From positions 2,024,001-2,088,000 of the forward strand of contig NZ_CP093280.1 in the NCBI RefSeq assembly GCF_026651855.1: a stretch of 64,000 nucleotides of DNA. Reading direction: 5' to 3'. Origin of the DNA: Pseudomonas silvicola (GTDB lineage Bacteria; Pseudomonadota; Gammaproteobacteria; Pseudomonadales; Pseudomonadaceae). The notes below the pieces were generated by a model, which was not told where the DNA came from, ran no database searches, and saw only the letters and a program-made list of their open reading frames with translations. Shown here piece by piece: positions 3,980 through 21,832 of the stretch (the first letter of the stretch is position 1; each line of letters starts with the position of its first letter). The position numbers and the translations under genes were made by a program.

Positions 3980-4446
3980 TGCAAAACCGCACCCTGGAAA
4001 TCGGTGTCGGCATGTTTTTGCTGGCCGGGATACTGGCGTTGATTCTGCTGGCCCTGCGTGTCAGCGGCCTGTCCACCAGCGCTGCCAACGACACCTACAA
4101 GCTGTATGCGTACTTCGACAACATCGCCGGCCTGACCGTGCGCGCCAAGGTCACCATGGCTGGCGTCACCGTCGGCAAGGTCACGGCCATTGACCTGGAC
4201 CGCGACAACTTCACTGGCCGCGTCACCATGCAGATCGACAAGAAGGTCAACAACCTGCCGGTCGACTCCACCGCTTCCATCCTGACGGCTGGCCTGCTGG
4301 GCGAGAAGTACATCGGCCTGAGCGTGGGGGGCGATGACAAGCTGCTCACCGACGGCGGAACCATTCATGACACCCAGTCGTCCCTTGTACTGGAAGATCT
4401 GATCGGCAAATTCCTGCTCAATACCGTTAACAAAGACGCCAAATGA
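3979..4446 (+). CDS. mlaD: MCE-domain protein MlaD
   Basis: Forms the periplasmic hexameric MCE ring above MlaE that channels phospholipids. I start it at the ATG overlapping the mlaE stop ([14 protein letters not shown]), giving 155 residues; the open frame upstream is only mlaE in another frame. One N-terminal membrane anchor (about 8-26) is followed by a single MCE domain containing GLTVRAKVTMAGVTVGKV near residues 50-67. Its stop overlaps the mlaC region. Confidence 0.94.
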   Translation: MQNRTLEIGVGMFLLAGILALILLALRVSGLSTSAANDTYKLYAYFDNIAGLTVRAKVTMAGVTVGKVTAIDLDRDNFTGRVTMQIDKKVNNLPVDSTASILTAGLLGEKYIGLSVGGDDKLLTDGGTIHDTQSSLVLEDLIGKFLLNTVNKDAK

Positions 4447-4457
4447 GGAGTTACTCC

Positions 4458-5099
4458 ATGATGTCCATCCTGCGACGTGGCCTGCTCGTACTGCTGGCCT
4501 GCATGCCGCTGCTGGCCACTGCTGCCGACCAGTCGGCCCATGACCTTGTGGATCGCACCACCAAGGAACTGCTGGCCGACCTGGCCGCGAACAAAGAGCA
4601 GTACAAGACCGATCCAAGCAAGTTCTATGACGCGCTGAACACCATCATTGGCCCTGTGGTCGATGCCGACGGTATTTCCAAGAGCATCATGACCGTCAAG
4701 TACTCGCGCAACGCCACCCCCGCGCAGGTCAAGCGCTTCGAGGAGAACTTCAAGAAAGGCCTGATGCAGTTCTATGGCAACGCGCTGTTGGAATACAACA
4801 ACCAGGGCATCACCGTGGGCCCGGCCAAAGGCGACGAGGGTGACCGCACCAGCGTCGACATGACCGTCAAGGGCACCAATGGCGCGGTCTACCCCGTGCA
4901 GTACACCCTGGTGAAACTGAACGGCGAATGGAAAGTGCGTAACGTCATCGTCAACGGCATCAACCTGGGCAAGCTGTTCCGTGACCAGTTCGCCGATGCC
5001 ATGCAGCGCAATGGCAACAACCTGGACAAGACCATCGACGGCTGGGCCGGCGAAGTGGCCAAGGCCAAGGCCGAGAAGGGCACTGGTGCTGCCCAATGA
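4458..5099 (+). CDS. mlaC: Periplasmic phospholipid-binding protein MlaC
   Basis: Soluble carrier shuttling phospholipid between the outer-membrane MlaA complex and MlaFEDB. I choose the ATG at 4458 because GAGGAG (4445-4450) sits 7 nt upstream. An earlier in-frame ATG at 4443 overlaps the mlaD stop but has no such site. The product has 213 residues with a Sec signal peptide (MMSILRRGLL to LLATAADQ), then the MlaC/Ttg2D fold. It overlaps mlaB by ATGA. Confidence 0.94.
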   Translation: MMSILRRGLLVLLACMPLLATAADQSAHDLVDRTTKELLADLAANKEQYKTDPSKFYDALNTIIGPVVDADGISKSIMTVKYSRNATPAQVKRFEENFKKGLMQFYGNALLEYNNQGITVGPAKGDEGDRTSVDMTVKGTNGAVYPVQYTLVKLNGEWKVRNVIVNGINLGKLFRDQFADAMQRNGNNLDKTIDGWAGEVAKAKAEKGTGAAQ

Positions 5100-12613: not shown

Positions 12614-13531
12614 ATGGTCGACAAACTGACGCATTTGAAACAGTTGGAGGCAGAGAGCATCCACATCATCCGTGAGGTGGCTGCCGAGTTCGATAACCCG
12701 GTGATGCTCTACTCCATCGGTAAAGACTCTGCCGTGATGCTGCACCTGGCACGCAAGGCGTTCTTCCCAGGCAAGCTGCCGTTCCCGGTCATGCACGTGG
12801 ACACCCAGTGGAAGTTTCAGGAGATGTACAAGTTCCGGGACCGCATGGTCGAAGAACTGGGCCTGGACCTGCTGGTGCACGTCAACCCCGAAGGTGTGGC
12901 CCAGGGCATCAACCCGTTCACCCACGGCAGCTCCAAGCACACCGACATCATGAAAACCCAGGGCCTGAAACAGGCGCTGGACAAGTACGGCTTCGACGCC
13001 GCCTTCGGTGGCGCGCGCCGCGACGAAGAAAAGTCGCGTGCCAAGGAGCGTGTCTATTCGTTCCGTGACAGCAAGCACCGCTGGGACCCGAAGAACCAGC
13101 GCCCCGAGCTGTGGAACGTCTACAACGGCAAGGTCAACAAGGGCGAGTCCATTCGCGTGTTCCCCCTGTCGAACTGGACCGAGCTGGACATCTGGCAGTA
13201 CATCTACCTGGAAGGCATCCCGATCGTGCCGCTGTACTTCGCTGCCGAGCGTGACGTGATCGAGAAAAACGGCACGCTGATCATGATCGACGACGATCGC
13301 ATCCTCGAGCACCTCAGCGAGGAAGAAAAGGCACGGATCGTCAAGAAGAAAGTGCGTTTCCGTACCCTTGGCTGCTACCCGTTGACGGGCGCGGTGGAGT
13401 CGGAGGCCGAGAGCCTGACCGACATCATTCAGGAAATGCTCCTGACGCGAACTTCCGAGCGCCAGGGCCGGGTCATCGACCACGATGGCGCCGGTTCGAT
13501 GGAAGACAAGAAACGTCAAGGCTATTTCTAA
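12614..13531 (+). CDS. cysD: Sulfate adenylyltransferase subunit 2 CysD
   Basis: Catalytic subunit of ATP sulfurylase; with the GTPase CysN it makes adenosine 5'-phosphosulfate (APS) from sulfate and ATP. The 305 residues are complete. The PP-loop [10 protein letters not shown] lies at residues 34-43, [16 protein letters not shown] near residue 134, and [14 protein letters not shown] near the end. It lies 14 nt before cysN. From residue 85 (position 12866) onward, this gene's 3' part is repeated identically at 15826-16491 as the tail of a chimeric ORF. This copy looks fully functional. Confidence 0.96.
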
Positions 13532-13665
13532 GTTAGGGTCAGACCATGTCGCACCAATCCGATTTGATCAGCGAGGACATCCTCGCCTACCTGGGCCAGC
13601 ACGAGCGCAAGGAGCTGCTGCGCTTCCTGACCTGTGGCAACGTCGATGACGGCAAGAGCACCCTG
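12866..13665 (+). repeat. Duplicated block B, copy 1 (cysD 3' part to cysN P-loop)
   Basis: An 800-bp block holding the cysD 3' part, the 14-bp gap and the first 40 codons of cysN. It recurs at 15826-16625 (offset 2,960 bp) with no difference I could find by eye. It is bounded by the 16-mer at 12866-12881 and the 15-mer at 13651-13665. Confidence 0.95.
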
Positions 13666-16491
13666 ATCGGGCGCCTGCTGCACGACTCCAAGATGATCTA
13701 CGAAGATCACCTGGAAGCCATTACCCGTGATTCCAAGAAAGTCGGCACCACCGGTGAGGACATCGACCTGGCACTGCTGGTGGACGGCCTGCAGGCCGAG
13801 CGCGAGCAAGGCATCACCATCGACGTGGCCTACCGCTACTTCTCGACCGCCAAGCGCAAGTTCATCATCGCCGACACCCCCGGCCACGAGCAGTACACCC
13901 GTAACATGGCCACGGGTGCCTCTACCTGTGACCTGGCGATCATTCTGGTCGACGCCCGCTATGGCGTTCAGACCCAGACTCGCCGCCACAGCTACATTGC
14001 GTCATTGCTGGGCATCAAGCATATCGTCGTGGCCATCAACAAGATGGACCTCAAGGGTTTCGACGAAGCCGTTTTCGAGGAAATCAAGGCCGATTACCTG
14101 AAGTTCGCCGAAGGTATCGCCTTGAAGCCGACCAGCCTGCACTTCGTGCCGATGTCGGCCCTCAAGGGCGACAACGTGGTGAATCACAGCGAACGGTCGC
14201 CGTGGTACACCGGCCAGACGCTGATGGAAATCCTCGAAACCGTGGAAGTGGCTGCCGACCGCAACCTCACCGACCTGCGTTTCCCGGTCCAGTACGTCAA
14301 TCGTCCGAACCTGAACTTCCGCGGCTTTGCCGGCACCCTGGCCAGCGGCATCGTGCACAAGGGCGACGAAGTGGTGGTGTTGCCATCGGGCAAGAGCAGC
14401 CGCGTCAAATCCATCGTCACCTTCGAAGGCGAACTGGAGCAGGCCGGTCCTGGCCAGGCCGTGACTTTGACCATGGAAGACGAGATCGATATCTCCCGTG
14501 GCGACCTGCTGGTGCACGCCGATAACGTGCCAGCTGTGACCGACAGCTTCGATGCCATGCTGGTGTGGATGGCGGAAGAGCCGATGCTGCCGGGCAAGAA
14601 ATACGACATCAAGCGCGCCACCAGCTACGTGCCGGGCTCCATCGCCAGCATCGTCCACAAGGTCGACGTCAACACCTTGGCCGAAGGCCCGGGCAGCGCG
14701 CTGGCGCTGAATGAGATCGGTCGTGTGAAGGTCGCGCTGGACGCCTCCATCGCCCTGGACGGCTACGACAGCAACCGCACCACCGGTGCGTTCATCGTCA
14801 TCGACCGCCTGACCAACGGCACCGTCGGCGCTGGCATGATCATCGCACCGCCAGTGGTGCCGCATGGTTCGGCCAGCCACCACGGCAAACTGGCCCATGT
14901 GGCCACCGAGGAGCGTGCCCTGCGCTTTGGCCAGCAGCCCGCCACCGTGCTGTTCAGCGGCCTGTCGGGCGCTGGCAAGAGCACCCTGATCGGGCGCCTG
15001 CTGCACGACTCCAAGATGATCTACGAAGATCACCTGGAAGCCATTACCCGTGATTCCAAGAAAGTCGGCACCACCGGTGAGGACATCGACCTGGCACTGC
15101 TGGTGGACGGCCTGCAGGCCGAGCGCGAGCAAGGCATCACCATCGACGTGGCCTACCGCTACTTCTCGACCGCCAAGCGCAAGTTCATCATCGCCGACAC
15201 CCCCGGCCACGAGCAGTACACCCGTAACATGGCCACGGGTGCCTCTACCTGTGACCTGGCGATCATTCTGGTCGACGCCCGCTATGGCGTTCAGACCCAG
15301 ACTCGCCGCCACAGCTACATTGCGTCATTGCTGGGCATCAAGCATATCGTCGTGGCCATCAACAAGATGGACCTCAAGGGTTTCGACGAAGCCGTTTTCG
15401 AGGAAATCAAGGCCGATTACCTGAAGTTCGCCGAAGGTATCGCCTTGAAGCCGACCAGCCTGCACTTCGTGCCGATGTCGGCCCTCAAGGGCGACAACGT
15501 GGTGAATCACAGCGAACGGTCGCCGTGGTACACCGGCCAGACGCTGATGGAAATCCTCGAAACCGTGGAAGTGGCTGCCGACCGCAACCTCACCGACCTG
15601 CGTTTCCCGGTCCAGTACGTCAATCGTCCGAACCTGAACTTCCGCGGCTTTGCCGGCACCCTGGCCAGCGGCATCGTGCACAAGGGCGACGAAGTGGTGG
15701 TGTTGCCATCGGGCAAGAGCAGCCGCGTCAAATCCATCGTCACCTTCGAAGGCGAACTGGAGCAGGCCGGTCCTGGCCAGGCCGTGACTTTGACCATGGA
15801 AGACGAGATCGATATCTCCCGTGGCGACCTGCTGGTGCACGTCAACCCCGAAGGTGTGGCCCAGGGCATCAACCCGTTCACCCACGGCAGCTCCAAGCAC
15901 ACCGACATCATGAAAACCCAGGGCCTGAAACAGGCGCTGGACAAGTACGGCTTCGACGCCGCCTTCGGTGGCGCGCGCCGCGACGAAGAAAAGTCGCGTG
16001 CCAAGGAGCGTGTCTATTCGTTCCGTGACAGCAAGCACCGCTGGGACCCGAAGAACCAGCGCCCCGAGCTGTGGAACGTCTACAACGGCAAGGTCAACAA
16101 GGGCGAGTCCATTCGCGTGTTCCCCCTGTCGAACTGGACCGAGCTGGACATCTGGCAGTACATCTACCTGGAAGGCATCCCGATCGTGCCGCTGTACTTC
16201 GCTGCCGAGCGTGACGTGATCGAGAAAAACGGCACGCTGATCATGATCGACGACGATCGCATCCTCGAGCACCTCAGCGAGGAAGAAAAGGCACGGATCG
16301 TCAAGAAGAAAGTGCGTTTCCGTACCCTTGGCTGCTACCCGTTGACGGGCGCGGTGGAGTCGGAGGCCGAGAGCCTGACCGACATCATTCAGGAAATGCT
16401 CCTGACGCGAACTTCCGAGCGCCAGGGCCGGGTCATCGACCACGATGGCGCCGGTTCGATGGAAGACAAGAAACGTCAAGGCTATTTCTAA
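13546..16491 (+). CDS. Chimeric CysN - CysN - CysD fusion (rearranged cysNC)
   Basis: A 981-residue open frame that should have been CysNC. Residues 1 to about 465 are a complete CysN, the ATP sulfurylase GTPase: P-loop GNVDDGKS 31-38, [11 protein letters not shown] from 110, NKMD 165-168. At the start of the CysC domain the CysC P-loop [10 protein letters not shown] (ending at 481) switches into CysN again. Residues 477-765 repeat CysN 36-324, including a second NKMD at 606-609. At DLLVH (761-765) it switches to CysD, and 761-981 equal CysD 85-305, without the PP-loop. The first CysN domain may work; the CysD tail cannot bind ATP as CysD does. Either a real rearrangement or an assembly error. 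Confidence 0.85.
13651..14518 (+). repeat. Duplicated block C, copy 1 (cysN core)
   Basis: An 868-bp segment of cysN from the P-loop codons to DLLVH. It recurs at 14974-15841, offset 1,323 bp (441 codons), with no difference I could find by eye. It is bounded by GGCAAGAGCACCCTG (13651-13665) and GACCTGCTGGTGCACG (14503-14518). Confidence 0.95.
14974..15841 (+). repeat. Duplicated block C, copy 2
   Basis: Second copy of the cysN core. It is entered through the CysC P-loop 15-mer at 14974-14988 and left through the 16-mer at 15826-15841, where sequence passes into cysD. Both joins keep frame. Confidence 0.95.
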
Positions 16492-16625
16492 GTTAGGGTC
16501 AGACCATGTCGCACCAATCCGATTTGATCAGCGAGGACATCCTCGCCTACCTGGGCCAGCACGAGCGCAAGGAGCTGCTGCGCTTCCTGACCTGTGGCAA
16601 CGTCGATGACGGCAAGAGCACCCTG
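15826..16625 (+). repeat. Duplicated block B, copy 2
   Basis: Second copy of the cysD 3' part, the gap with its ribosome site, and the cysN start. It is left through the 15-mer at 16611-16625 into the unique cysC remainder. Confidence 0.95.
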
Positions 16626-17084
16626 GCCTATGCCGTGGAGCGCAAGCTGTTCGACATGGGCCGCGCGGTGTTCGTGCTGGACGGCCAGAACCTGCGTCAC
16701 GACCTGAACAAGGGCCTGCCGCAGGACCGTGCCGGCCGTACCGAGAACTGGCGTCGTGCCGCCCACGTGGCGCGTCAGTTCAACGAAGCGGGCCTGCTGA
16801 CCCTGGCTGCCTTCGTGGCGCCGGACGCCGAAGGCCGTGAACAGGCCAAGGCCCTGATCGGTGCTGACCGCTTGTTGACCGTGTACGTGCAGGCTTCACC
16901 GCAGGTATGCGCCGAGCGTGACCCGCAAGGGCTGTACGCCGCCGGCGGGGACAACATCCCCGGCGAGTCCTTCCCCTACGACGTGCCGCTCAATGCCGAC
17001 CTGGTGGTCGACACCCAGAGCGTGTCGCTGGAAGAAGGCGTCAAGCAGGTACTGGACCTGTTGCGCAAGCGCGGCGCTATCTAA
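16506..17084 (+). CDS. cysC: APS kinase CysC with a CysN-derived N terminus
   Basis: A 192-residue frame whose first 40 residues are the CysN N terminus ([10 protein letters not shown] to DDGKSTL) and whose residues 41-192 are the CysC part of CysNC ([20 protein letters not shown] onward). APS kinase phosphorylates APS to PAPS. The hybrid P-loop GNVDDGKST still fits GxxxxGK[ST], and [13 protein letters not shown] and the rest of the kinase are present. Activity is therefore possible but unproven. The start and upstream sequence duplicate those of cysN. In a normal genome these codons end a 633-residue CysNC. Confidence 0.8.
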
Positions 17085-17130: not shown

Positions 17131-17224
17131 CCAGGGGAAGCAAACCCAGCGGTAGATCGTTACCACCTGGCGGGGCGTTGTTCGCGGTGTGATGCGCGGA
17201 CCTCATCCAGACAGGACCCCGTTC

Positions 17225-20200
17225 ATGAACGATCTCTACTCCCTCAGTGCCCAGGTCGCACGATTGGCGCCGCTGGCCAGCAGTGTCAGCAAGCACTTCG
17301 CCGGGCGCCCGACCTTGCAGGATGCCGCCCGGCAGGTACTGACCATGCAGTTGGCGCTGCTGTACCCCGACTTGGCCATCGACCCCGCGCGCCTGGAACT
17401 GCTGGCGCCCATCAAGGACCCTGGCACTGGCCGGTTCGGCGGTTACCACCGCACCCTGATGACCGACGCATTGATGCGCCGCTACCTGGTCGATGAAAAC
17501 ATCCTGCTGATGCCGGGCTATCACTTGCTGACCCATGAAGGTGGGGCTGAGCAGCCCGGCGCACTGGCCGTGGATATCAAGCAGGTGCAGCGCATCGTCA
17601 ACGAATGGGGCCCGCAACTGTTGAATGTCCATGGGCAGGCCCTGTGTGATTACTGGAACGTAGTCCAGCTTGGCGGCGGCAACCGCTGGAAGTGGCTGGC
17701 CGCATGGCTGCAGACCCGGTTGAAGCGGTGCGTGGAGCGCGACCACAAGGCGGGGGCGCTGGACCAGGACCAGGCTGCCACCGCCATGGCGTTGGTCACA
17801 CTGCCCGACGCCCTGCACCGCAGGCAATACAGTGGCGATGCCCTGCGGGCCTCGCTGATCGGCCTAAAACCTGCCGGTGACGATGCGGCCAGCGTGGCGC
17901 AGGTCACCCATGCGCTGGTGATTCAGCGGCACGTCAGCCTTGATGATCGAGACGTCGTCCTGCTGTATACGCCCCTCAAGGGTATCGAGGCCTTCGCCAG
18001 CCTGGACGCCTTGGCCGTCAGTGTGGCCAAGCTGTTGCCGCCTCAGTTCTCGCCCTCGGCCATCCGCCTGGCACTCTATGAGCCTGATGAAAGCGTGTTC
18101 GAGGTGCAGGCCAAGGCCATCCTCGCCCAGCAACTGGCAGCCGTGCAGGCAGTGGGCGCGCGCTGCCGGGCCGAAGCCAGCACCGTCAGCGAACTGGAGC
18201 GGCAAGTGGAGCGCGTGACCTGCCTGTTCGAGGTGGATACCGCCGAGGAGGTGGCCGAACTCAAGTCCGTGGAGGGCGCTGTGCCCCAGTGGTTGCTGGC
18301 GGCGAGCAGCGCTGATCGGCGCGCGTACTCCCTGCATCTGGCCGACCTGGCCATACTGCGCCAGCAGCAGGGTGGGCGTGTGTTTACCGATGGTATCGCG
18401 TCGATCATGACGTTCGCCCGTCAAGCGTTGAGCGAAGCGATCGCCAAGGCCCATCCACAGGCGCCCGTTACACTGCTCGATGATGTGCAGGTGCATATCC
18501 TCACCCTGCCCGATGCGCCGATGAGTATCGTCGACGGCGGGCACAGGACGATGGTCGACCAGACCATCAGCCTGGTCCAACTGGCGGTGATGAACCTGGC
18601 AGGTCGCCCCAGGGGCCATTTGATCGTCGAGCCCAGGCAAGGGGCAACCTTGCCGGCCTGGGTCGATAAGGCGGCCATCGAGGCGCTGGTGACCCGGGTG
18701 GATGTCGGCGGGGCCTACATCAGCATGCTGCGGGCCAGGCTGCGCGACAATGAGGTCGAAGCAGCGGGGCGCAAAAGCAACTTCACGGCACAATTGGCCA
18801 TTCAACTGCCGATGCTTGCCCTGGAGAACAAGATCCGCCAGCAGCAGGGTTTCACCGAGCGCGGCCAACGCCTGGTCGCCCAGGTGCTGGCGCATCCACA
18901 GGCGGCAAGTGTGGACGGCCATGCCGTATCGATGAAAACCCTTGGCTTCAAGGCGGCGGCGAACCGGTCCCCTGACCGGGTGCAGAACATGTTTGTGATG
19001 GGGGCCGTGGACGGTACCGGCACCCAGGTTCTTTACCGGCCATTGTTCACGCCGGCGTTGATGGAGTTCGACAGTGGCGAGGCGTTGCTGGACGCCATTG
19101 CCGAGCCCGGTGCGCTGCAGGACAGTGTGTTGGATTGGCTCGAGCCCGCCACACGCAAAGTGTATGCCCAGGGTGGTTTCAAGGAACCGCACGTGGCGCG
19201 CTTTGGCCTCGGTTCAGACGCCGCCGTGCTGGAGCCGCCGGCACCCGCTCGCTTGAGCCTGGCGCCGATGGCGGGGCCGTTGCTCGCTGGCCTCTATGAG
19301 CAAAGTGTGGAAGCCTTGATCACGGTGGCCAGGCGGCAGTCCCTGTCCAGTGAGCAGAGCCGCTGGATCAATTATCAGGCATTGGCCTGGACGCTCTTCA
19401 ATGCCTTGTTGCCCGTATTTTCCGGACCTTTGGCCACGGCCGGCTGGATGATTCAGGCCATCACCAGCCTGGGTATCGCCCTGGACGCCCGTGTACAGGG
19501 CAAGAATGAGGCCGTCACTGACACCCTTGCCGATCTGTTTTTCAATGTCGCGCTGGTGCTGTTGACTCACGGCGTCAGCCAAGCGCCCTGGATCAAGGCG
19601 TATCCCGAAGCGCTGCCTGCCACGGTGGAACCGTTGGTGGCCTCCAGATTCGATCTGCGGCCCGTGGAGGCTAGCCAGGTTGCCAGTGAATTGAGTTTCA
19701 GCTGGTCGCGGGCCAACCACCGCTTGACCCGCGAGGACCTTGATCGGCTGATGGGGTTTGAAGTGGCCAAGCCCGCGACGTTGGGCGAACCAGTGCCCCA
19801 CGGCGCGTTGCAAGGGCTTTACCAGGATGGCCAGCGTTGGCTGGTGAGCCTGGACGGGCATTTCTTTCAGGTCAGCCTTGATGAGGGCCAGGCGCGCATC
19901 GTCGACACCGCGCGTCCCGACCATCCCGGCCCTTGGCTGGAGCGCGATGAGGTGCACCGCTGGCGCCTTGACCTGAGCTTGCGCCTGCGCGGTGGTAGCC
20001 CGAAGCGCAACATCGAGCAACAGCGTGCGCAGAACCTGGCCCGCAAGCTCGAATGCGGGCGCATCGTCAGCGAGTTCAATGCCACGCGTACCGAGATGAA
20101 CGTCAAGGTCAACGTGCTGATCCGCAAGATCGGGGTAGCTGCAGCGGCCAACGATCTGGCAGTGGTTCAGCGCTTGCGCGAGCGCCTGTCGGCCGAAACG

Positions 20201-21832
20201 GAGCCTTATCTGGCATCACTGCGCAAGGTGCTCGCCGCTTGCATCGAACTCAAGGCGCTGGACCCCGGCTTCGATCGGACTCGCGAGCAGGCCGAGTTGC
20301 TGGGGTTCCTGCACCTGGTGGGGACCGAGGAGCTGATCAACCTGCGCATGCGCAGCAGAATCATCAACAGCGAAGCCGAGCCACTGGGCATGGAACTGCA
20401 AGCGCAGCACGTGGAACCGGCACAGTCCCGGCTGTTCTTCGACTTCGTTCAACGCAGCAGCGACCTCACCGACAAACAGGTGCGGTTGACCAAGGAAGTG
20501 AGGGGCTGGAAAAAGCAGCTCGAACGCCTGCCGCTTGAGGGCGACCGGGTGCTTAAAACCCTGACCACGTCCTATGAAATCGACCTGCCCGTCGAGAACT
20601 GGATTGGCTTGCTGATTGATGGTCTTGGTCTGTTGTGTGTTCGTCACATCCCGGAACTGCCGGTGGCCAGCCGGCTGGTCGACAGCGTGGTCAGTTCGGC
20701 GCGGCTGGCGGCACTGAGCCACGCCGAACTGCAGCAGAGCGCGCATTTCACCCTCAACGACCGGGTGGAGGTACTCGATAGTGTCGAGCAACAGTATGCC
20801 GCGGCACTGGACGCGCTGAGCGACTACCGCACGCAGTTGGGGGCGCAGTTGGATCTCACGGCCATGGGCCGCCTGGAGGGCTTCATCGCCGAACTGCGTG
20901 CAAGTGCCAAGGAGGAATTGGTGCCGTTGGTCAAAGAGCAGGAAAAAATGACGCGCAAGCAGCGTCGCTCCGAGCGCAACGCCAACCTCTTCGTCACGGC
21001 GCGCCGTGGGGTGGTGGTCGGCAAGCGCCGGACGACGAGCGCGGGCGCCACGGCGGAAACATTCGAGATGGTAGACCCCATCGAATCCAAGGTGCTGGCG
21101 TCTTTCGAGAAAGACCCCGTGGCCGGCACCTGGACCGAAGTGCAGCCGGACAAGTCCGCTGCGGCCCCGGTGAAATCCCTGAACAGTGTGGTCAATAAAA
21201 GCCAGGGCTTGCTCAAGGCCGCAGACAAGGAAGTGTTGTCGGCGTGGCGCCAGGCTGCCAAGCCATATATCCCGTCGGAAGTGGAAGACCAGCTATTGTC
21301 CTACGCGCGCCAGCTCAATGACCACGCCGACGCTATCGACCGGCAACTGACGTTGCGCAACGAGACAGACGTGGCCCTGCCTGCCCATCAGTCCGCCGAG
21401 GTCAGGGCCAAGGAGCTGCGCGACAAGGCGGCGCAATTGACGGAGGAGGGCCGCTTGATTCGCATCGACATGAGCAAGCGCCAGCCGCCGACCGTGGCCC
21501 GCGTCGATTACCTGCTGCGTCAGAAGGCCATCCGGATACGCCGAATCGGCGAGCGCAAGGCGCTGAAGAAAGGGCGTGATTTTCTGCAGGAGTATGAGGT
21601 CGCCGACCTGGAGGGCACGCCGCTGTGGTACGCCCATTTTCACTACGCCCAGGCCCGTGGCCTGGCCTCGGCCTATGAGCGGGCGCATTTGAAAACCGCA
21701 GCGCAGCGCCTGGATGGGTTGAGCAGGCAGATGGCCCAGGACGCGGCGGGCGAAGAAGTCATCGCCATTCTGCGTAGCCGCATCGAGGCGCCGTTGGACC
21801 ACCTGTTCCTGGACCTGGAGCCCAAGGGTTGA
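17225..21832 (+). CDS. Very large toxin-like protein (dermonecrotic toxin domain, DUF6543-like)
   Basis: A 1,535-residue protein from the ATG at 17225 (MNDLYSLSAQ), which has AGGA 8 nt upstream; a GTG at 17189 would add 12 residues. From memory, the N-terminal style and the central hydrophobic pair resemble Pseudomonas proteins with the dermonecrotic-toxin N-terminal domain (DUF6543). The pair is LFNALLPVFSGPLATAGWMI near residue 730 and LFFNVALVLLTHGV near residue 770. The C-terminal half (about 920-1535) is charged, Leu-rich and probably helical or coiled coil. There is no signal peptide and I see no leucine-rich repeats, so a ubiquitin-ligase NEL form is not supported. No immunity gene is obvious beside it. 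Function and secretion route are inference only. Confidence 0.6.
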   Translation: MNDLYSLSAQVARLAPLASSVSKHFAGRPTLQDAARQVLTMQLALLYPDLAIDPARLELLAPIKDPGTGRFGGYHRTLMTDALMRRYLVDENILLMPGYHLLTHEGGAEQPGALAVDIKQVQRIVNEWGPQLLNVHGQALCDYWNVVQLGGGNRWKWLAAWLQTRLKRCVERDHKAGALDQDQAATAMALVTLPDALHRRQYSGDALRASLIGLKPAGDDAASVAQVTHALVIQRHVSLDDRDVVLLYTPLKGIEAFASLDALAVSVAKLLPPQFSPSAIRLALYEPDESVFEVQAKAILAQQLAAVQAVGARCRAEASTVSELERQVERVTCLFEVDTAEEVAELKSVEGAVPQWLLAASSADRRAYSLHLADLAILRQQQGGRVFTDGIASIMTFARQALSEAIAKAHPQAPVTLLDDVQVHILTLPDAPMSIVDGGHRTMVDQTISLVQLAVMNLAGRPRGHLIVEPRQGATLPAWVDKAAIEALVTRVDVGGAYISMLRARLRDNEVEAAGRKSNFTAQLAIQLPMLALENKIRQQQGFTERGQRLVAQVLAHPQAASVDGHAVSMKTLGFKAAANRSPDRVQNMFVMGAVDGTGTQVLYRPLFTPALMEFDSGEALLDAIAEPGALQDSVLDWLEPATRKVYAQGGFKEPHVARFGLGSDAAVLEPPAPARLSLAPMAGPLLAGLYEQSVEALITVARRQSLSSEQSRWINYQALAWTLFNALLPVFSGPLATAGWMIQAITSLGIALDARVQGKNEAVTDTLADLFFNVALVLLTHGVSQAPWIKAYPEALPATVEPLVASRFDLRPVEASQVASELSFSWSRANHRLTREDLDRLMGFEVAKPATLGEPVPHGALQGLYQDGQRWLVSLDGHFFQVSLDEGQARIVDTARPDHPGPWLERDEVHRWRLDLSLRLRGGSPKRNIEQQRAQNLARKLECGRIVSEFNATRTEMNVKVNVLIRKIGVAAAANDLAVVQRLRERLSAETEPYLASLRKVLAACIELKALDPGFDRTREQAELLGFLHLVGTEELINLRMRSRIINSEAEPLGMELQAQHVEPAQSRLFFDFVQRSSDLTDKQVRLTKEVRGWKKQLERLPLEGDRVLKTLTTSYEIDLPVENWIGLLIDGLGLLCVRHIPELPVASRLVDSVVSSARLAALSHAELQQSAHFTLNDRVEVLDSVEQQYAAALDALSDYRTQLGAQLDLTAMGRLEGFIAELRASAKEELVPLVKEQEKMTRKQRRSERNANLFVTARRGVVVGKRRTTSAGATAETFEMVDPIESKVLASFEKDPVAGTWTEVQPDKSAAAPVKSLNSVVNKSQGLLKAADKEVLSAWRQAAKPYIPSEVEDQLLSYARQLNDHADAIDRQLTLRNETDVALPAHQSAEVRAKELRDKAAQLTEEGRLIRIDMSKRQPPTVARVDYLLRQKAIRIRRIGERKALKKGRDFLQEYEVADLEGTPLWYAHFHYAQARGLASAYERAHLKTAAQRLDGLSRQMAQDAAGEEVIAILRSRIEAPLDHLFLDLEPKG

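Follow-up and report, generated by a model that had tools for sequence, protein, structure and literature searches.

Short tandem duplications are generally regarded as frequent in bacteria but short-lived. In Salmonella cultures, the verified spontaneous duplications had 11-27 bp of microhomology at their junctions (PMC3411829), and an engineered duplication uses a microhomology of 9 bp (PMC11111574). More than one novel join per locus, with microhomology at the joins, is a feature both of complex amplification events in starving Escherichia coli (PMC3161906) and of the microhomology-mediated break-induced replication (MMBIR) model (PMC2621351). No title among the literature matches listed describes a natural genome rich in such duplications, which is weak evidence. 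Here we describe the cysD-cysNC locus in a 64,000-nucleotide stretch of the Pseudomonas silvicola genome (contig NZ_CP093280.1, positions 2,024,001 to 2,088,000; hereafter the window). The locus is probably the product of a real, recent and composite rearrangement by exchange between direct repeats of 15-16 bp, on a chromosome that seems unusually dense in such events.

The duplications considered below resemble those of Salmonella in their direct orientation and range of junction lengths. The Salmonella duplications are variants within a culture (PMC3411829), whereas here 15 loci lie in about a quarter of one contig of an assembled chromosome, several with diverged copies and three of them nested. 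Compared with the E. coli events (PMC3161906) and with MMBIR (PMC2621351), the joins are longer here and local inverted copies are lacking in the 1.864 Mb compared. At the cys locus itself, the point of reference is the CysD and bifunctional CysNC (NF004035) of the genus, which are the source of every block and are found in their plain version in relatives. Three things set our locus apart from that version: the P-loop of CysC is swapped for that of CysN, the kinase is a separate frame and CysN bears a long extra tail.

Structure and products of the cysD-cysNC locus

A search for exact direct repeats of at least 25 bp across the whole window returned just two pairs, both at cysD-cysNC and both on the forward strand, as are all features of the locus given below. 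Block B, including its flanking R2 and R1 repeats, is 800 bp long and lies at 12866..13665 and 15826..16625 (offset 2,960). Block C, including its flanking R1 and R2, is 868 bp long and lies at 13651..14518 and 14974..15841 (offset 1,323). The two copies of each block are 100% identical, and exact repeats of this size are far beyond chance. Between the copies of C lies the single-copy block D (14519..14973), which holds the cysN end and the cysC start as far as the P-loop. R1 (GGCAAGAGCACCCTG, 15 bp) starts at 13651, 14974 and 16611, and R2 (GACCTGCTGGTGCACG, 16 bp) at 12866, 14503 and 15826; neither occurs on the opposite strand of the window. The new joins are thus D to C at R1 (14974..14988, 15 bp), C to B at R2 (15826..15841, 16 bp) and B to E at R1 (16611..16625, 15 bp). 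With A for the sequence before the first R2 and E for that after the last R1, the order reads A-R2-B-R1-C-R2-D-R1-C-R2-B-R1-E. The original prediction had given this order and described the joins as in frame; the exact-repeat search reproduced the order and every coordinate, and all six R1/R2 sites are indeed in frame 0 of their reading frames. The locus was found once in a search of the whole genome (C1:2036614-2041084, where C1 is the 7.61-Mb contig that carries the window), with one 37-bp partial match elsewhere.

The extra DNA (14989..16625), delimited by the repeats and by comparison with relatives, amounts to 1,637 bp. Since this is the R2-to-R2 spacing of the plain order (14503 - 12866), the insert corresponds exactly to a single turn of the loop R2-B-R1-C. 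Dropping it leaves 1,443 + 459 bp, or 634 codons with the stop, which agrees on coordinates with the single CysNC of 633 residues that had been forecast. As in a tandem duplication, the extra copy is in direct orientation and is bounded by a short repeat common to the parent sites. The order A-B-C-D-C-B-E is not, however, that of a single head-to-tail unit, and the earlier claim that one tandem duplication cannot give it holds.

The rearranged locus is read in three frames. The first is an intact cysD of 305 residues (12614..13531; NF009214, 522.5 bits, cut-off 413). The second, a 981-residue open reading frame (13546..16491), runs on its profile matches from CysN to the CysC P-loop, then through the CysN core and into the C-terminal part of CysD. 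Pfam finds two GTP_EFTU stretches and PAPS_reduct in this frame, and no APS kinase domain (PF01583). Although it scores 1350.9 against the NF004035 cut-off of 715, from two stretches, the frame lacks the APS kinase domain expected of a bifunctional CysNC. That domain lies in the third frame (16506..17084, 192 residues; PF01583, 150.4 bits, cut-off 21.1), which opens with the copied cysN start and in which the CysN N-terminus and P-loop (GNVDDGKST) run into the remainder of CysC. In its Walker A motif, G36, K37 and S38 are invariant and T39 is found in at least 90% of A1; the frame stays under the NCBIfam apsK cut-off (TIGR00455, 122.5 vs. 138.7 bits). The rearrangement is thus predicted to leave CysD whole, CysN whole as the first part of a longer fusion, and a kinase with a CysN-derived P-loop, so that sulfate activation may still work in this strain. 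Two nucleotide-binding enzymes would thereby have undergone a natural swap of P-loops, assayable by growth on sulfate.

Comparison with close relatives, for which the original prediction had called, gave the plain arrangement throughout. When 38 genomes were searched with the locus, 32 matched, and all 24 same-genus relatives among them fit a plain cysD-cysNC, their matched pieces spanning positions 1 to ~2375 and ~3998 to 4471 of the query, as expected of that arrangement. G017 and G019, read directly, have a contiguous, plain cysD-cysNC. The D-C join was then sought in 298 genomes of the genus, our own included, and scored from an uncut per-genome table: it was present at full length in none of the 297 others, of which 296 matched partly and one (78% complete) not at all (E-value 1.5e-108 at full length vs. 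1.7e-51 for the next-best genome). The chimeric P-loop join was absent from the 111 loci examined by protein pattern, and a degenerate junction pattern gave 0 matches in the genome contigs. Among the genomes compared, the nearest relatives by sequence are G299 (93-95%) and G098 (91-94%).

Short-homology duplications elsewhere on the contig

We compared 1.864 Mb of C1 with itself (1524001-2588000, 4000001-4400000 and 5500001-5900000), counting a locus if it had direct copies that were 500 bp or longer and at least 99% identical. Eighteen alignments at 15 loci passed, cys included: 12 head-to-tail tandems, one of them three-copy, and three nested loci. The tandem units measure 1302, 846, 918, 3303, 750, 2413, 942, 1127, 1419, 1406, 804 (three copies) and 1104 bp, and nine of these 12 lengths are divisible by three (eight with 751 in place of 750 bp). 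Each tandem has a short repeat common to its left end, junction and right end, of 11-37 bp by local alignment (median 15.5) or 9-28 bp by ungapped extension. At least two tandems have a unit that starts in one gene and ends in the next, presumably Gph-TrpE and GlnD-Map, so that the outer genes are both whole with an in-frame chimera between them. Such gene-to-neighbour duplications may be nearly harmless, which is perhaps why they were kept.

Identity between copies ranges from 100% to 99.2% among the counted loci; an older tandem (94.7%, at C1:4087557) stands outside the count. Local inverted copies (at least 300 bp at 97% within 30 kb) were not found in the 1.864 Mb. One inverted pair (C1:1849671 / 2384528, 98.5%) is 535 kb apart, hence non-local, and was left uncounted. 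Short-repeat arrays and repeat-type sequences under 99% or 500 bp, several of them at 90-96%, were also left out, including those at C1:1842570, 1950171, 2340410, 2564224 and 4119425.

Besides cys, the nested loci are C1:2099629-2112956 and C1:2575225-2581432. The former has 892-bp and 2,242-bp copies and four new joins, and reads A-U-B-V-C-V-D-U-E against A-U-B-V-D-C-E in G299 and G098, where U and V are both single-copy. The latter, which we take to involve yebC, ruvA-ruvB and tolQ, has copies of 93 bp and 1,972 bp, with four differences in the longer one, and a 12-bp join.

As controls, we used 400 kb from each of two complete same-genus genomes. These 2 x 400 kb hold no locus of at least 500 bp at 99% or more, where 6.4 would be expected in 800 kb at the density seen here (P = 0.0016, Poisson). 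A wider control of 80 named loci (1.58 Mb) gave two local direct pairs of at least 300 bp at 90% or more (96.2% and 92.1%), and none at 97%. This second set is largely of draft contigs, which can collapse tandems, so the density comparison rests on the two complete genomes.

Real duplication or assembly artefact

Since assembly errors should yield identical copies and several pairs here have diverged, duplication appears real for the set. Eight pairs differ at 2/1,316, 6/3,331, 4/~766, 7/2,426, 4/1,972, 3/1,138, 11/1,436 and 6/1,423 positions, a total of 43 differences (27 transitions, 16 transversions); the 1,104-bp pair (three substitutions, two gaps) and two gap-only pairs were left out of this analysis. 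Thirty-eight of the differences could be placed in likely genes, with frames picked by codon-position G+C; synonymy was scored on copy 1, or on copy 2 if the first was non-coding. Twenty-four of these are synonymous and 14 are not (46 and 27 if both copies are counted separately), giving P = 2.4e-5 for an assumed non-synonymous share of 70% and 3.7e-4 for one of 65%. The excess is strongest in the 3,303-bp and 2,413-bp units (10/10) and weaker in the other six pairs (14/28). Consensus error has no preference for synonymous sites, and a share of 24/38 is therefore unlike it. Judged on these sequences, the whole set of loci is best explained by real duplication: this genome seems really to make and keep short-homology duplications.

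At the cys locus, one alternative is that the assembler passed twice through the links at R1 and R2, the cell itself having a plain cysD-cysNC. A different but permitted walk through R1 and R2 would give the observed order, the cys copies are 100% identical and, as described below, the assembly has further oddities. Against this, the graded and mostly synonymous divergence at the sister loci points to such duplications being real in this genome, and local inverted copies are missing. Joins of 9-11 bp, found by ungapped extension, are also shorter than the overlaps that assemblers normally accept. The original prediction had insisted that an artefact be excluded first, a fair worry at one locus; with 15 loci, 12 of them plain tandems and several diverged, a graph-walk artefact becomes much less likely. 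We consider an artefact at the cys locus itself unlikely, and short-homology duplication more likely to be a habit of the genome than a mistake of its assembly. Amplification chimeras are ruled against by the same lack of local inverted copies, and a mixed-strain assembly should not produce units bounded by short repeats.

Several points nonetheless weigh against a real rearrangement on an unusually dense chromosome. The cys copies show no sign of age, so that the case for this locus rests on the company of the others, and the locus is known from assembled sequence alone. Contig C3 (84,880 bp) repeats exactly at an offset of 42,440, half its size (17,560 bp seen), and over that part looks like either a dimeric plasmid or a circular contig written out twice; contamination of the assembly is rated at 8.04%. 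The controls cover 400 kb in each of two genomes, the control genome G019 holds one 501-bp direct pair (96.0%), and a further 60 kb from each of C1, C2 and C3 gave no such duplication within 30 kb. Finally, the circle invoked below, like the steps of the route, is something we infer.

Route to the rearranged order and origin of the density

A search of rearrangement steps, run on block names, showed that two exchanges suffice to reach the cys order if a single circle integrates: R2 x R2 closes the circle and R1 x R1 inserts it. On the route we propose, a sister copy would release the circle R2-B-R1-C (1,637 bp) through an R2 x R2 exchange, and one R1 x R1 exchange would place it in the cysC P-loop. 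With tandem duplications and deletions alone, the shortest route takes three steps; such a serial route could consist of a duplication by R1, a duplication by R2 and a deletion by R1. The identity of the cys copies fits one event or a fast series. At C1:2099629-2112956, given sites assigned from the comparison with G299 and G098, the order can be reached in four single exchanges, or in three steps if a circle is allowed.

Alternatively, repeated template switching during a single replication event, as in MMBIR or fork stalling and template switching (FoSTeS), might have produced the whole structure, with jumps from the end of D to C, from the end of C to B and from the end of B to E. Such a mechanism would account for several microhomology joins per locus (three at cys, four at C1:2099629-2112956), for identical copies and for a short repeat at the joins, and complex amplification events are reported in starving E. 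coli (PMC3161906). According to the same source, however, those events are mostly inverted duplications, and the 1.864 Mb examined here hold 0 local inverted copies, which counts mildly against template switching. In addition, one exchange is enough to explain 12 of the 15 loci, which are plain tandems, and the joins are longer than the 2-5 bp given for the model (PMC2621351). We therefore regard a single template-switching event as improbable. The route first put forward for the locus starts with a tandem duplication across R1, after which B takes the place of the second D between R2 and R1. It does yield the observed order, but it calls for an ectopic replacement anchored by 15-16 bp on each side where the circle needs no replacement, and is very improbable.

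What lies behind the density was approached through candidate genes. Matches to recA, mutS, recJ, recD and the exonuclease I domain are free of stops in our own genome (G000) and in four relatives. We accordingly rejected a loss of RecA, exonuclease I, RecJ or RecD as the cause (uninterrupted matches in five of five genomes searched, G000 included), and also a mutator state, mutS being open and the substitutions between copies being of both types (27 transitions, 16 transversions in the eight pairs). A RecT-type annealing protein was likewise rejected, with none in G000 and one present in two of four relatives.

While the mechanism belongs to a known type, what is of interest is its setting, a chromosome that has kept many short-homology duplications. 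It is possible, though we put it forward tentatively, that this is a natural duplicator lineage. In such a lineage, exchange between direct repeats of ~10-30 bp would, throughout a long period, keep making and fixing kilobase duplications (~8 per Mb), although recA, mutS, recJ, recD and exonuclease I are intact. It would leave in-frame chimeras behind, more densely than is seen in sister species. The chimeras would presumably be the CysN-CysC P-loop swap, TrpE-Gph and GlnD-Map. If true, a chromosome that keeps many duplications, from identical to several per cent diverged and often with a chimera between whole parent genes, would let the events be dated. It would also allow one to ask why duplications persist and to watch gene fusions arise.

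A few minor observations concern individual loci. At C1:2099629-2112956, one copy terminates in a short sequence like a repetitive extragenic palindromic (REP) element, repeated many times in G098. Three exact 804-bp units at C1:5770060-5772489 lie in one 997-residue frame with repeated CAACHT-like motifs, which by eye appears to be of the cytochrome c type. The 846-bp tandem at C1:1875302-1877009, in a gene we assume is probably ABC-F, is joined at ACCTGTCCGGTGGTGA, readable as LSGG. An array of ~109-bp imperfect repeats at C1:1950171-1951227 carries the motif GCTCGGGAAG, which the 3,303-bp tandem has at its ends as well. An open frame of 1,547 residues (17189-21832 of the window) follows immediately downstream of the cys locus.

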